NCBI GenBank assembly: GCA_025359565.1
Contig: JANYFY010000022.1
Location: forward strand, 1-64,000
Source of the DNA: Gammaproteobacteria bacterium
Lineage (GTDB): Bacteria; Pseudomonadota; Gammaproteobacteria; Steroidobacterales; Steroidobacteraceae
Reading direction: 5' to 3'
Length of the DNA: 64,000 nt
Position numbers and translations under genes: made by a program. Below are positions 36,211 to 41,768 of the stretch, one piece after another. The stretch's first letter is position 1; each line of letters begins with the position of its first letter. Below the pieces are notes generated by a model. The model had not been told where the DNA came from. It saw only the letters and a program-made list of their open reading frames with translations, and did no database searches.

Positions 36211-38037
36211 CTAAATCATCGCCTCCCATGGGCGACTCAAGCGTAAAGCGCTGATAATGACGCCCACCATGCTGTAGGTTTGTGGAAAATTACCCCATTG
36301 AAGGCCACTGACGGGATCGATATCTTCAGACAATAACCCGACGCTATTACGCCGCGACAATAATCGCTCGAACAATTGGCGTGCTTCGACGAGGCGACCG
36401 ATGCCCGCGAGTGCGTTCACATACCAAAAAGAACACATAGTAAAAGTGTTGGAAGGCTCGCCAAAATCGTCGGCATGTACGTAGCGATACACCAAATCAC
36501 CCCGTACTAATTCGCGCTCAATCGCTTTTACGGTACTCACAAATCGGGGGTCGTCTGCCGCAATGAACCCTAAGTCCGGCAGCAATAGGGCAGTAGCATC
36601 CACATCGTCCTCTCCAAATGCGCTAGTGAACGATTGTTTGGTTGAACTCCACGCACGCGAACTGATTTGCTCATGCATATACCGCGCGCGCTGGTTCCAA
36701 AATTCGGCTCGTGCGGTATTTTTAAGTTCGGTGGCAATACGGCCGAGTCGATCACAGGCGGCCCAACACATGACGCTGGAGAACGTATGGATTCTTGCAA
36801 TTCCACGAAATTCCCACGGGCCCGCATCGGGTAATGCAAATACCTCAGTGGCGTGTTGTCCAAGCACTTCGAGGCGAGCAAAGAGCGCACTATCACCTCG
36901 TTGTGTGAGGCGCTGGTCGAAAAATAATTGGCGGGCCGCCAGTACTACCGAACCGTATACATCGTATTGTGTTTGTTGGTAGGCAAGGTTACCGACTCGT
37001 ACCGGTCCCATGCCGCGAAAGCCCGCAAGCGAGGTAAGCTCACGCTCCTCAATGTTTGCTTCACCGGTAATGCTGTACAGCGGCTGCAATACGCCGGTGG
37101 CTGAACGCGCCACGACATGATCTAAATAGCGTAAATAGCTTTCCATCGTATTCGTGGTGCCGAGCCGGTTTAGTGCGGAGACTACAAAAAAACTATCCCG
37201 TAACCAACAATACCGGTAGTCCCAGTTGCGAGCGGTATTCGCCATTTCTGGTATCGAAGTGGTCAACGCTGCGACGACGGCGCCGGTGTCTTCATAGGTG
37301 CACAGTTTTAAAGTAATCGCCGCCCTGATCACCGCTTCTTGCCAATCGTAGGGTACTGCTAGACCCCGGATCCACTCGTGCCAATACCGACGCGTTTCTT
37401 CCAGCCAGCTGCGTGCGAGTGCCAGCGGGGTTTCCTCGATCGTTTCATCCGTCGACAGAATGAATGCAAGTGGCGCGTCAAGAACTATGGTGCTCCCATC
37501 AAGGAGTGCCGATACCGATCCGTTAGTGGTCACCCGATAGGACAATTGCGGTGAAATAAAGCGAACGTGATGACTACCTGAGATTTTATCAGGACTCTTT
37601 GCTCCATAGTCGTAGCAGGGGTTGAACCTTAAAGTGACGAGCGGATGACCTTGTACGGGTTCGATGATACGCACTAAACTCATGGGCCTGAAAATTCTGC
37701 CCCGTGTGCGAAAACGTGGGCAAAAATCCGTGATGCGCAATTGGTTGCCGTGAGAATCGCTCAGTTGTGTCTCAACCACGGCGGTATTGCGTTGATACTG
37801 ACTAGTAGACGTTGCAAGATCCGCGAGATCCACCGCAAAGACGCCTTTCGCATTTTCGCCGCCTTCAGTCGAGAGCAGCGAGCAAAAAACCGGGTCGGCG
37901 TCGAGACGAGGAAGGCAGGCCCATACCATTCGGCCCAGAGGATCGATAAGCGCCGCGATTTGGCAATTCCCGATGACCGCAAGATCTAAATTGCCTTTGC
38001 GCGTATCGTTGTCGTGGTCCAGGTTTTGGCCTTGCAT
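36211..38037 (-). CDS. Glycoside hydrolase family 15 protein (glucoamylase/trehalase-like)
   Basis: 608 residues. The N-terminal beta domain (AALIDPLGRMVWACLPRLDADPVF) and the alpha/alpha-barrel (TARNWDYRYCWLRDSFFV; SGLQWGNFPQTYSMVG) define the GH15 group that often neighbours otsA/otsB. The enzyme probably hydrolyses an alpha-linked glucoside such as trehalose, but specificity cannot be read. The start codon overlaps the otsB stop by one base. No signal peptide is seen, so it acts in the cytoplasm. Confidence 0.9.
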   Translation of the reverse strand: MQGQNLDHDNDTRKGNLDLAVIGNCQIAALIDPLGRMVWACLPRLDADPVFCSLLSTEGGENAKGVFAVDLADLATSTSQYQRNTAVVETQLSDSHGNQLRITDFCPRFRTRGRIFRPMSLVRIIEPVQGHPLVTLRFNPCYDYGAKSPDKISGSHHVRFISPQLSYRVTTNGSVSALLDGSTIVLDAPLAFILSTDETIEETPLALARSWLEETRRYWHEWIRGLAVPYDWQEAVIRAAITLKLCTYEDTGAVVAALTTSIPEMANTARNWDYRYCWLRDSFFVVSALNRLGTTNTMESYLRYLDHVVARSATGVLQPLYSITGEANIEERELTSLAGFRGMGPVRVGNLAYQQTQYDVYGSVVLAARQLFFDQRLTQRGDSALFARLEVLGQHATEVFALPDAGPWEFRGIARIHTFSSVMCWAACDRLGRIATELKNTARAEFWNQRARYMHEQISSRAWSSTKQSFTSAFGEDDVDATALLLPDLGFIAADDPRFVSTVKAIERELVRGDLVYRYVHADDFGEPSNTFTMCSFWYVNALAGIGRLVEARQLFERLLSRRNSVGLLSEDIDPVSGLQWGNFPQTYSMVGVIISALRLSRPWEAMI

Positions 38038-38783
38038 TAAGATGCCGAGGAGTTTTCACGCAAGCTACTGAGCCAGGTACGCACCGCCGCGGGATCCTCT
38101 AAACGCCATTGGGCCTGCACGCGATCACCGACCGCGATCGACATGCCGTCACAATCTTCAACGGCTCGAAAGCCATCGCGATCCGTTAGATCATCACCAA
38201 TGAATATTGGCAAGCGGCCCGAAAATGGCTGTTCTTTCAAAAAAGCTTTGATCGCGGTCCCTTTAGAAAATCCGCTAGGTTTAATTTCCAGCACGAAATG
38301 TCCTTCTTGAATATGATACTGGCTACCCAGTCGCGCAACCGCATCCACAAATATTTTCCGAATGGTTGGCTCTTGTTCAGGGTCGTTACGAAAATGCATC
38401 GCGATCGCACGGCCTTTATCTTCGAAATGAGTGTTGGGATGAGCACTGGTTATTTCTTGTAATGCAACTTTTAGCGAGTTTAGGCGAGAGTCGCCGAATC
38501 CGGCGCCGCGCAACGATCCGTTTAAATCGCGACGTTCAATACCATGCAACCCTGCCGCGGCAAACCGCAAGGGTGCAAAAAGTCGATCCAGACTCACAAT
38601 GCTTCGCCCGCTTACCAACGCAAGCGCACCATCGAGTTTATTAAGAATAGTCGTCAGCAAAAATTTCAATTTTTCGTCGACGACACTCTCTTCGGGCGAA
38701 TCAGAAAACTCGATGAGTGTTCCATCTACGTCTAAGAATAGGCAGCAATCAAGAGTCAGTGGTGGCGGAGAATTTTTTCCCAT
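38037..38783 (-). CDS. otsB: Trehalose-6-phosphate phosphatase
   Basis: About 248 residues from ATG 38783; GTG 38846 would add 21 residues. HAD-superfamily motifs are FLDVDGTL, ALVSGRSI and GDDLTDRDGF. It dephosphorylates trehalose-6-phosphate to trehalose. It is transcribed away from otsA and overlaps the GH15 gene downstream, giving an otsB-GH15 operon divergent from the synthase. Confidence 0.93.
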   Translation of the reverse strand: MGKNSPPPLTLDCCLFLDVDGTLIEFSDSPEESVVDEKLKFLLTTILNKLDGALALVSGRSIVSLDRLFAPLRFAAAGLHGIERRDLNGSLRGAGFGDSRLNSLKVALQEITSAHPNTHFEDKGRAIAMHFRNDPEQEPTIRKIFVDAVARLGSQYHIQEGHFVLEIKPSGFSKGTAIKAFLKEQPFSGRLPIFIGDDLTDRDGFRAVEDCDGMSIAVGDRVQAQWRLEDPAAVRTWLSSLRENSSAS

Positions 38784-38895
38784 TCGGGACCATAACTGAA
38801 CCAACTCGGATTGCCAATAGTTCACTGCATAATTTCCAGGGTACACTGGTATGCTGTGGAACTTCTCATAGCAACAGCTGTCCTTAGACCTGTTG

Positions 38896-38965
38896 GTCGC
38901 AGGCCGGGGGTTAGTCGCAGGCCGGGGGTTAGTCGCAGGCCGGGGGTTAGTCGCAGGCGGAGTTA
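38896..38965. repeat. Four tandem copies of an 18-bp unit in front of otsA
   Basis: Perfect GTCGCAGGCCGGGGGTTA units start at 38896, 38914 and 38932; a shortened fourth (38950-38965, GTCGCAGGCGGAGTTA) supplies the GGAG ribosome-binding site of otsA. There are no spacers, so this is not a CRISPR array. Confidence 0.92.
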
Positions 38966-38968
38966 GAT

Positions 38969-41221
38969 ATGTTTCGTACGGTGCTCTTGCGATTGATTTT
39001 GCCTCTTATCGCCGCTTCTGTGGTGGTAGCGTACGTAGGCTTGCCCTATATCGAACGGTTGCTGAGCGAGTGGTTTCGTTCAGACGTCGAACTTCGGGCT
39101 CAACTGGTGATGCATTCCACTGAAGATCAACTCAGTGAACTTGTTGCGAAGAGTGCGGAGAAAGGTGCGGAGAAAGGTGCGGAGAAAGGCAGCGACGCTC
39201 GCCTGCGCGCGTATCTGTCGAAGATTACCAGTGACGAGCGATTGCTTGGAATTTTGGTCTGTCGTGTTGACGGCACGCTGATAGCAAAAACGGACCGGAC
39301 TCCTGCGTCAATTGCCTGTGATGCCAGTAATGATCCGCTAGCAACTCGTATTTTGAAGCTTCGGTCTGGATCCATACAGATTTCCCAATTTAGATTCGGT
39401 ACGGATTTTTCAGCCTTTCGGGTCCTGTTGCTGCACGATTTGAGTTTTGTTGACCATCGCCAAAGAACTGCGCGTGACTTTCTTTTGGTTTTCGTTGGCA
39501 TTTCCGTATTGCTGCTAGCATTGTTAATCGTTTTGACCGGGTGGCTACAACTGCGCCGTTGGATCCAGTCGTTAGTGGGCGATATTCGTGGCCAACGATT
39601 TCTCGATGATGCAAGGTCACCGCGTGCTTCATTGCCCATTCTTTCGGAAGTTCGGCAAGCCATGGCCGAAGCGGAGGAGAAGCAAAGACTGGAGATTGAT
39701 TTCCGCGAAAATTGGACGCCTCAGGCGTTGCGGCAAATCGTCGATGATTATCTACAGGCGTCGCAGGTGATGATTGTCGCCAATCGCGAGCCGTATATTC
39801 ATAGCTATGATGCGGAAGGTAAAGCGGTAGTCCAAGTTCCCGCGAGCGGCATGGTGACAGCTCTCGAACCGATTATGCGTGCGTGCTCCGGCGTGTGGAT
39901 AGCGCACGGCGCCGGTACTGCGGATCGGGCCACGGTGGATCGCTTCGATCAAATACGAGTGCCACCCGATGATCCCACCTATACCTTACGTCGAGTGTGG
40001 TTGACGCCGGAGGAGGAGGCTGGCTATTACTACGGATTCTCGAATGAAGGGCTATGGCCGTTGTGTCACTTGGCATACGTGCGGCCGGCTTTTCGTGCGG
40101 GTGATTGGCGGGTGTACACGGAAGTCAACGCCAAATTTGCTGATGTAGTTGCGGCCGAAGCTACCACCGATAGTCCGGTGATTTTAATTCAGGATTTTCA
40201 TTTCGCGTTGTTGCCTAAACTCATTCGAGCCAAAATGCCCAAAGCTACCGTGGTGTTGTTTTGGCATATTCCGTGGCCTAATGCCGAGACGTTTGGTGTT
40301 TGCCCTTGGAAGAGTGAGATGCTGTTGCATATGCTCTCCGCCGATATTCTAGGTTTTCACACGCGCTATCATTGCCAGAATTTCTTAGACGCCGTTGATC
40401 GATTTATGGAATGTCAGATAGATCATGAGCACATGACCGTCACGTTCCAGGGCCATATCTGCAAGGTTGCACCGTATCCTATTTCGATTGAGTGGCCTCC
40501 GCGCTGGCTTAAAGACGTGGCGGACGTGGCCACCTGCCGTGCCGCGGTTCGTCAGAGATACCAAATTGGTACGAATGTATTTTTAGGTTTAGGGATTGAG
40601 CGCTGGGATTTTACCAAAGGCATTGTTGAGCGTTTTCACGCATTAGAAGCTTTGCTAGATAGAAACCCGCGACAGCGCGGTAGAGTCACGCTATTACAAG
40701 TCGCGGCTCCGTCACGCAGCGAATTACCGGCCTACGCGGCATTGCAAAAAATGACCTATAGCGAAGTAGAGCGGATCAATGCCAAGTTCGGAGAAAATGG
40801 TTGGTTACCGATCGTTCTGATTGATAAACATCAAGAGCCCCAACAGGTCTTTGAGTTGTACCGTGCGGCGGATTTCTGTTTGGTGAATAGTTTGCATGAC
40901 GGTATGAATTTAGTGGCTAAGGAATTTGTCGCCGCTCGCGACGATGAAGATGGTGTGCTCATTTTGAGCAGTTTTGCGGGCGCTTCGCGCGAACTCATCG
41001 AAGCCGTGTTGGTTAATCCTTTTGATGTAACGGAAACTGCTCAGGCGATGGAGACAGCAATGCGCATGGGCAGAGATGAGCGCCGCAATCGCATGAATTT
41101 AATGCGTCGAACCGTTAAGGAGAATAACGTGTACCGCTGGGCTGGGAGCATGCTGATGGATGCTGCGCGGATCAGGCAACGGCAAAGCTTGCCGAGTGTG
41201 GGTCGTGACGCGAATCGCTAG
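38969..41221 (+). CDS. otsA: Trehalose-6-phosphate synthase with N-terminal two-TM sensor-like module
   Basis: 750 residues, against about 470 for ordinary OtsA. TM1 is at 6-26. An extracytoplasmic stretch of about 140 residues includes [19 protein letters not shown], reminiscent of PAS/Cache sensor strands. TM2 is at 170-192, followed by a HAMP-like amphipathic stretch to about 250. The GT20 catalytic domain runs from [10 protein letters not shown] (about 267) through [25 protein letters not shown] and [18 protein letters not shown]. It joins UDP-glucose to glucose-6-phosphate. The layout implies a membrane-tethered enzyme able to sense periplasmic conditions. A 12-bp repeat (39153-39188, [13 protein letters not shown]) lies in the periplasmic part. 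ATG 38969 is preceded by GGAG. Confidence 0.9.
39153..39188. repeat. Three 12-bp repeats within otsA
   Basis: GTGCGGAGAAAG occurs three times head to tail, encoding the GAEK tetrapeptide repeat in the predicted periplasmic loop. Confidence 0.9.
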
Positions 41222-41768
41222 GCCGGTGGAATCAGATCGGAGGTCGCCGAGTTTTTCGATCCCGTGAATTTGCGCGCGTCCACCGAGAGCGCTTGCGGCA
41301 GAACGGCTACTTACAAGGAGTGGTCAAAGGCTGGTTAATAGCATCTAGCCCCAGTATTGCGCGCCGCCGTCGATAGATCTTGTTGTGCGTGCCGGCTTAA
41401 TCGCTGCGTCGACCCTTGCGGCCTATCGTAGTGAACTCGTGTTCCTGCGCACATCACGGTACGTGCCTCCTCGATGGGAAGAGGTAAGTGATGAGATGGC
41501 AGCGTTGTTCGATCTTTTGGAGACGGAACCGGAACCGGAGCCGGAACCGGAACCGGAGCCGGAACCGGAGCCGGAACCGGAACCTAAGGTGCGTGCGGTA
41601 TTAGGCCATTGGCTATTGGGATATATTCATCTGTACGGGGACGCCAATGGTCGAATGGCTCGCTATCTGATGAACGTGATGCTGGCTTCGGGCGGCTATG
41701 CATGGGCAGTTATTCGCATCGAAGATCGCTCCGAATATCTTCGCGCGCCCTTAAAGTTAGGGCGTTAG
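41221..41768 (+). pseudogene. Decayed Fic-family gene (AMPylation domain) with Glu-Pro repeat expansion
   Basis: Frame 1 (41221-41376) reads REFARVHRERLRQNGYLQGVVKGWLIASSPS, typical of the N-terminal region of a Fic family with a winged-helix start. It stops at TAG 41374. Another frame (to TAG 41768) reads STLAAYRSELVFLRTSRYVPPRWEEV, then ten Glu-Pro units, then GHWLLGYIHLYGDANGRMARYLMNVMLASGGY, clearly a Fic core. The canonical HPFxDGNGR is degraded (HLYGDANGR) and the C-terminus is lost. I conclude it is a broken gene. Its 3' end overlaps moaE by 12 bases on the other strand. Confidence 0.8.
41526..41585. repeat. Hexanucleotide repeat (GA[A/G]CC[G/T])10
   Basis: Ten in-frame copies encode a Glu-Pro tract inserted between the PPRWEEV segment and the VRAVLGH helix of the Fic relic. 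Related Fic proteins have only a short acidic turn there. Confidence 0.9.

Follow-up and report, generated by a model that had tools for sequence, protein, structure and literature searches.

A trehalose-6-phosphate synthase fused to a predicted periplasmic Cache-fold domain, a candidate one-component receptor-enzyme

Explanations of how bacteria control trehalose synthesis usually invoke transcription. For the mycobacterial trehalose-6-phosphate (T6P) synthase OtsA, metabolite allostery by 2-oxoglutarate and 2-phosphoglycerate is described in the available part of PMC6879718. Two bacterial loci offer close gene-level comparisons: Ramlibacter tataouinensis carries a GH15-OtsB-OtsA cluster (Rta_36480-36500; available part of PMC3164672), and Geobacter sulfurreducens GSU2337 is described as 'containing a domain' that shares 37% identity with the M. 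tuberculosis enzyme and is listed together with a T6P phosphatase, GSU2336 (available part of PMC2700814). On the sensory side, Cache domains are marked by a long helix that is continuous with the first transmembrane segment and by a domain that fills the stretch between the two transmembrane segments; the extracellular domain of WalK/YycG is a Cache domain, and SMP_2 is a Cache family (available part of PMC4822843). The same survey searched proteins with known signalling outputs and, in its available part, reports outputs for all families except SMP_2 (PMC4822843). In titles and the beginnings of abstracts, a search whose coverage excluded most subscription papers and all of bioRxiv, we found no description of a membrane-bound or sensor-fused T6P synthase. 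The architecture presented here is genuine and conserved and, within the reach of these literature searches, undescribed: a known enzyme family and a known sensor fold in a new combination.

The gene lies in a window of 64,000 nucleotides (the whole stretch of DNA that was analysed, positions 1 to 64,000 of contig JANYFY010000022.1) from a gammaproteobacterium of the family Steroidobacteraceae. A single ATG frame on the forward strand (38969-41221), free of internal stops, encodes a 750-residue protein identified from its reading frame, Pfam and AlphaFold as a membrane T6P synthase with a periplasmic Cache-fold domain. Hydropathy delineates two strong hydrophobic segments, TM1 at residues ~7-28 (38987-39052, +), which is continuous with a periplasmic helix reaching residue 65, and TM2 at residues ~170-193 (39476-39547, +). 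Between them lies the predicted periplasmic Cache-fold domain (residues ~30-166; 39056-39466, +), and TM2 is followed by a cytoplasmic linker (residues 194-262; 39548-39754, +) and the GT20 T6P synthase domain (residues 266-735; 39764-41173, +). The AlphaFold model of the full protein, built with 80 sequences, has a mean pLDDT of 89.4. Computation supports a predicted topology in which the protein crosses the inner membrane twice, with the N-terminus and the enzyme in the cytoplasm and the Cache-fold domain in the periplasm; mean net charges over 80 homologs (N-terminal tail, +2.4; residues 30-50, +1.2; segment directly after TM2, +2.3) agree weakly with both protein ends being cytoplasmic. 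A preliminary description of this DNA had placed two transmembrane helices ahead of an OtsA catalytic part beginning near residue 267, and both points are borne out, the Pfam GT20 match spanning residues 266-732. The PAS/Cache-like strands that it had recognized in the periplasmic part reappear in the AlphaFold model as five strands within residues 92-157, and sensor and enzyme do share a single polypeptide, as it had proposed: they form one open reading frame in the relatives read and in 4 of 4 full-module profile matches among 299 genomes. Transmembrane helices and sensor-fold similarity are both present, and the N-terminal part was never a separate gene in the relatives examined.

Modelled alone with 62 sequences, the periplasmic domain reached a pLDDT of 91.3. 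The model of the full protein shows helices at residues 2-65 and 74-86, strands at 92-99, 104-107, 126-131, 134-143 and 150-157, and then a helix at 159-207. The top five Foldseek chains, from four entries, are all extracellular sensor domains of WalK/YycG (E 8.9e-6 to 3.8e-5; TM score normalised by query 0.52-0.60), the first-ranked of which is an integrative model. KinD, DctB, TlpC, CitA and FixL PAS domains follow at lower ranks with E above 1e-3, and the list also mixes in unrelated small roadblock-type proteins of the HBXIP, dynein and MP1-p14 type, HBXIP standing at rank 8 with E 1.3e-3. In the model, the long N-terminal helix extends TM1 and the domain occupies the whole stretch between the transmembrane segments. 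These computed structures support the assignment of a Cache (extracellular PAS-like) fold to the modelled domain. An in-frame 12-bp tandem repeat (39153-39189, 3.1 copies) adds an 11-residue stretch to this domain in the window protein and is probably a recent lineage-specific expansion, since it is missing from all 15 aligned relatives.

Among Pfam models, the best match in the N-terminal domain is SMP_2 (E 0.027; 14.6 bits, below the cut-off of 28.9), which fits a Cache fold because SMP_2 is itself counted among the Cache families in the available part of PMC4822843. No Pfam Cache-family model scored over its cut-off in the window protein, and at E 0.1 no PAS, Cache-named or HAMP model matched any of 65 members (the alignments of 65 and 62 rows are subsets thinned for diversity). 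The sensor-type matches in that scan were CHASE4 in one member (E 0.051) and SMP_2 in two (0.027); it also returned Adeno_E3B in nine members and Ferritin in one, which we took for chance. A PDB sequence search with the N-terminal part, alone and as profiles, gave no credible match. When 299 genomes were searched with a profile built from the N-terminal module, at most eight candidates being scored per genome, ten weak matches outside GT20 were obtained (E 3.9e-5 to 9.9e-4), which mostly span TM2 and its surroundings. By Pfam, nine of the ten are membrane signal transducers, namely five of histidine-kinase type (L119, L121, L123, L127 and L129), three GGDEF or GGDEF-EAL proteins (L117, L124 and L128) and one chemoreceptor (L120). 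The remaining match (L126) is interrupted by a stop and overlaps a 141-residue reading frame that, as judged by eye, is hydrophobic. At the level of profile similarity, this signal-transducer company appears telling.

The periplasmic domain has diverged more quickly than the enzyme (mean pairwise identity 0.33 vs 0.64) and ranges from 121 to 148 residues in the two-TM form. Every one of the 80 aligned proteins has W35, D39, R43, C98 and C117, and near-invariance extends to R164 (79 of the 80), D157 (77), P112 (76), D89 (75) and H156 (74). Two members drawn independently of this set (L112 and L114) keep W35, D39, R43, C98, C117, H156, D157 and R164; a third (L111) is identical to L040 across the 300 residues compared. 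All 80 proteins have exactly two cysteines within the domain, C98 (39260-39262) and C117 (39317-39319), and the plain reading of their conservation is that they probably form a disulfide (putative feature at 39260-39319, +); the pair is also present in L112 and L114. Residues W35, D39 and R43 are situated on the helix leaving TM1, and H156, D157 and R164 on the stretch entering TM2; they may mark the membrane-near ends through which the Cache domain must signal. The conserved positions appear to be grouped on the first helix, near strand 1 and where the domain joins TM2; they outline no obvious conserved ligand pocket, and so would suggest no ligand.

The linker (residues 194-262) is predicted to form a helix, a short connector, a helix at 219-246 and a last helix at 251-262, with low pLDDT (54-66) across residues ~201-250; W249 and L254 are invariant. 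HAMP domains have a helix-connector-helix shape like that of this linker, and the preliminary description had called the segment HAMP-like. The helical shape is predicted by the model, but the HAMP model PF00672 matched 0 of 65 proteins at E 0.1. Likewise, the window gene is absent from the six HAMP matches of its own genome. An hhalign comparison of TM2 plus linker with 11 TM2-HAMP sequences gave 89%, but the query profile was itself the source of 5 of the 11, and a comparison with just these five gave 91%. Against HAMPs picked by the Pfam model, the values were 4% (6 sequences) and 15% (31 sequences, 67 columns), and the latter set is not wholly independent, as L161 within it and the query-found L124 are one gene. 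When TM2 was left off, the linker scored 18-60% against the sets with query-found HAMPs and 0.4% against both Pfam-picked sets. Unrelated-segment controls ranged from 0.1 to 4.8% overall (2.8% for TM1 plus helix, 4.8% for TM2 alone) and from 0.1 to 4.4% for the Pfam-picked comparisons. HAMP homology, which looked convincing at first at 89%, is a possibility that we do not claim, because 5 of the 11 reference HAMPs were query-found and the value falls to 4-15% once HAMPs are chosen by the Pfam model.

The catalytic part matches Pfam PF00982 (GT20) at residues 266-732 with E 6.5e-115 and 385 bits against a cut-off of 32.5, as do all 65 aligned proteins, and its structure matches have TM scores, normalised by target, of 0.85-0.91 among the 50 matches listed. 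The curated OtsA equivalog model TIGR02400 scores 405.9 bits against a cut-off of 564.85, and the T6P-synthase label therefore rests on active-site residues and neighbour genes. Of the substrate-binding residues of E. coli OtsA, the equivalents of R10, Y77, W86, D131, H155, R263, K268 and R301, and of D362, M364, N365, L366 and E370, are kept by all 41 two-TM proteins and all 6 single-TM proteins compared. The acceptor residues R273, Y354, D409 and R583, together with W363, are unaltered in the clade, and most donor residues are kept in 41 of 41 two-TM proteins, the exceptions being the equivalents of Gly22 and Phe340. Three changes are clade-wide (41 of 41 two-TM, 6 of 6 single-TM): Ser293 replaces Gly22, Ser641 replaces a Pro and His643 replaces an Arg. 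A fourth, Trp42 to His313, occurs in 41 of 41 two-TM proteins and 1 of 6 single-TM proteins, the other five having Tyr, and the Phe340 equivalent is replaced in most members, mostly by His. His643 (40895-40897) sits at the Arg of the RDGMNL donor loop, a position that is Arg in 15 of 15 outsiders of the alignment. Judging from the DGM motif that follows, it would correspond to Arg384 of M. thermoresistibile OtsA, which belongs to an allosteric site (available part of PMC6879718). The comparison as a whole supports, by computation, the prediction of a largely intact T6P-synthase active site.

A search for relatives covered 60 genomes, including the window's own. A match that includes the N-terminal part was obtained in 16 of 22 other genomes of the same genus and in 1 of 14 genomes from other genera of the family; among these, G013 covers only residues 1-162 and G014 is split over two contigs. 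In 15 of the 60 genomes the only GT20 proteins align from residue 291 or later, and 27 of the 60 gave no match at E 1e-3. The 15 relatives whose whole sequence was read can be aligned over their full length, with 61-80% identity, the split gene (L015) and the G013 fragment having been left out of the genus alignment. Searching genome contigs yielded at least 577 candidate relatives, of which the best 80, with matches starting at residues 1-35, were kept (L034, cut by a contig end, was left out); these are uninformative on frequency, as they were picked by similarity to the whole query. All 79 full-length homologs among the best 80 have one hydrophobic segment within residues 1-60 and another starting at 151-193. 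The N-terminal fusion is not a chance event, since it is retained across same-genus genomes and full-length homologs.

Among 299 Pseudomonadota genomes (the window's own included), 102 carry a GT20 gene. The signature SLHDGMNL, invariant in the 80-protein alignment, is present in 15 of the 299, in 14 of them inside the GT20 match; a census by signature would miss members in which it is altered. Four of the 14 signature GT20 genes encode the two-TM sensor form (own, G132, G170 and G225), nine a single-TM form and one, in G299, a protein with no transmembrane segment that is apparently soluble. The N-terminal profile found the same four two-TM genomes and five single-TM GT20 proteins. The nine single-TM members all come from one family (f64) and have no periplasmic domain; together with the apparently soluble member, they indicate that the enzyme can do without the sensor domain. 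In this sample, proteins of the receptor form are outnumbered by other GT20 proteins, and the form is not universal even within its own clade.

Single-TM T6P synthases without the periplasmic domain (L115, L116, L118, L122, L125, L131 and L175-L178) come from f64 and from the Aminobacter plasmid pAA02 (Alphaproteobacteria), where the gene comes after one for amylo-alpha-1,6-glucosidase. The Aminobacter match, the best among plasmids, begins only at residue 229 and turned out to represent the single-TM form; 359 plasmid records matched, and among the 30 matches listed none covers 80% of the query at one place. The sole pattern match in viral contigs is not a relative. The single-TM Aminobacter gene, one annotated clade member, is labelled only 'trehalose-6-phosphate synthase', which illustrates how the membrane part can pass unnoticed.

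In a maximum-likelihood tree of 62 catalytic domains, 41 of them from two-TM proteins and G299 not included, the 47 membrane forms make up one clade (100/100), and the nearest outsiders are one haloarchaeal and one Deinococcus soluble protein, both on long branches and of unsure placement. The single-TM group (100/99) is nested within the two-TM proteins. The simplest reading of this tree is that the receptor module was gained once and that the Cache domain was later lost once, with one transmembrane segment kept. Clade members are labelled as Pseudomonadota, Thermodesulfobacteriota, Myxococcota, Bdellovibrionota, Nitrospirota, Acidobacteriota, Gemmatimonadota and Cloacimonadota, eight phyla in all, with the proviso that individual labels may be wrong because many members are metagenome-assembled genomes (MAGs); the two-TM form is carried by Geobacter MAGs. 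Eleven ordinary OtsA proteins from the window's own family and order were placed far outside the membrane clade, so that the window gene was probably transferred in, or kept from a different lineage.

The divergent neighbour of the synthase gene is otsB, for T6P phosphatase (38037-38846, -; TIGR00685 140 bits against a cut-off of 68; PF02358), and downstream of otsB, overlapping it by one base, is a gene for a GH15 trehalase-like hydrolase (36211-38037, -; PF00723 and TREH_N over cut-off; TreH1 320 bits, below 820). An OtsB-like gene is found near 67 of the 80 loci and a GH15 gene near 48 (47 and 48 by BLAST alone), some loci being shortened by contig ends. For the 13 loci with neither, ten neighbour reading frames from five of them were scanned and showed no common partner; three of the ten had no family. 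The reading-frame lists of some loci (L084, L106) contained antisense frames and were not used as gene maps. Scans for promoters and terminators returned roughly as many as in shuffled sequence. The 122-bp gap between otsB and the synthase gene, where promoters should lie, holds an 18-bp tandem repeat (38892-38958, 3.7 copies, 97% matches), one of several short tandem repeats in the window (18 rows), some of them within or beside genes. Past the synthase gene, a short GTG reading frame (41385-41768) matches Fic/DOC (PF02661, E 2e-8) and encodes an EPEPEP repeat (6-bp tandem repeat, 41524-41584); it has the look of a Fic gene that has been truncated. In one relative, 77 bp separate the membrane T6P synthase gene from an upstream gene (L035:3541-4923) for a histidine kinase with a 2CSK_N sensor. 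Only one GT20 gene was found in the window genome, and neither TreS nor TreY models matched there over cut-off; a 67-residue TreS-like stretch (C20:125909-126109, L141; 79 bits, sub-cut-off) in a 148-residue open frame leaves room for a further trehalose route.

From the predicted topology and fold, the one-gene fusion, the largely intact active site, the gene neighbours and the single origin, all of which were computed, we favour the view, with some confidence, that the protein is a one-component receptor-enzyme in which a periplasmic cue tunes T6P synthesis, and its function as a switch is plausible. The signal would most likely be osmotic, desiccation or envelope state. Such a cue would act on the Cache domain, presumably in a dimer and probably stapled by the C98-C117 disulfide, and would displace TM2 together with the helical linker on the cytoplasmic side. 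The last linker helix (251-262), just past the invariant W249, runs in the model into the first GT-B strand and ends 11 residues before the acceptor-binding Arg273, and its movement could thereby tune T6P synthesis, in a direction that we can only infer. The OtsB encoded next door would then convert T6P to trehalose, which the GH15 enzyme could remove. The broader proposition, that Cache receptors have a biosynthetic output class, with a metabolic enzyme on a periplasmic sensor, one origin and a spread over at least eight phyla, is in our estimate evenly balanced.

The main rival to the receptor-enzyme is a plain membrane anchor, which would tether the enzyme to the inner membrane, for instance next to an exporter or so that T6P is channeled to OtsB, with the periplasmic domain passive or serving in packing. 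The single-TM branch, nested in the two-TM clade, keeps a transmembrane segment and the linker helix without the periplasmic domain, so membrane attachment is possible without a sensor; a mere anchor, however, would not need a domain of 121-148 residues with a Cache-fold model and five residues invariant in 80 of 80 proteins across eight phyla, and we regard this explanation as somewhat unlikely, at about one chance in four. That exactly two cysteines, both invariant, occur in the domain in all 80 proteins and in two independently drawn members might instead point to a redox or folding gate, in which the C98-C117 pair itself is sensed and T6P synthesis reports the periplasmic thiol-disulfide state and not a ligand or osmolarity. 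A structural disulfide would be equally conserved, though, and such a gate seems improbable. Least probable is that the catalytic domain makes another disaccharide phosphate and the sensor controls that product: the scores below the OtsA equivalog cut-offs, the clade-specific Ser293, His643, Ser641 and His313 and the frequent replacement of Phe340 are in keeping with it, but R273, Y354, D409, R583 and W363 are unaltered and OtsB-like genes accompany 67 of 80 loci.

If the receptor-enzyme reading is true, a receptor domain in the synthase would constitute a third, direct route of control beside transcription and metabolite allostery, and an outside cue would set compatible-solute synthesis post-translationally, without a kinase, regulator or second messenger. 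The family would also offer a clean system for studying how a periplasmic domain drives a GT-B enzyme, with the single-TM and apparently soluble clade members as natural controls.

Compared with the solved OtsA enzymes of E. coli (1gz5) and M. thermoresistibile (5jij), the protein is alike in its GT-B GT20 fold and conserved substrate residues, but those enzymes are without the 265 extra N-terminal residues (two transmembrane segments and the periplasmic domain) present here. The window clade also differs from both in having Ser293, His313, Ser641 and His643, the last in place of the mycobacterial Arg384 (available part of PMC6879718). The Ramlibacter cluster, compared by description only, has the same three gene types adjoining, and no membrane or sensor part is mentioned in the available text of PMC3164672. 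For GSU2337, likewise compared by description only, the available text of PMC2700814 does not discuss the remainder of the protein and mentions no sensor. The Cache (PDC) sensor of WalK/YycG is the best solved-structure match of the periplasmic domain, at 10-15% identity in the top five; its output is a histidine kinase, whereas here it is a biosynthetic glycosyltransferase. The Cache models of PMC4822843 were built, according to its available part, from proteins with known signalling outputs, a choice that would by its nature tend to leave this family out. Cache one-component receptors such as diguanylate cyclases, adenylate cyclases and chemoreceptors share the TM1-Cache-TM2-linker-output layout, but GT20 is not among the Cache output classes given in the available part of PMC4822843, and the output carried here on that layout is GT20, with no signalling output.
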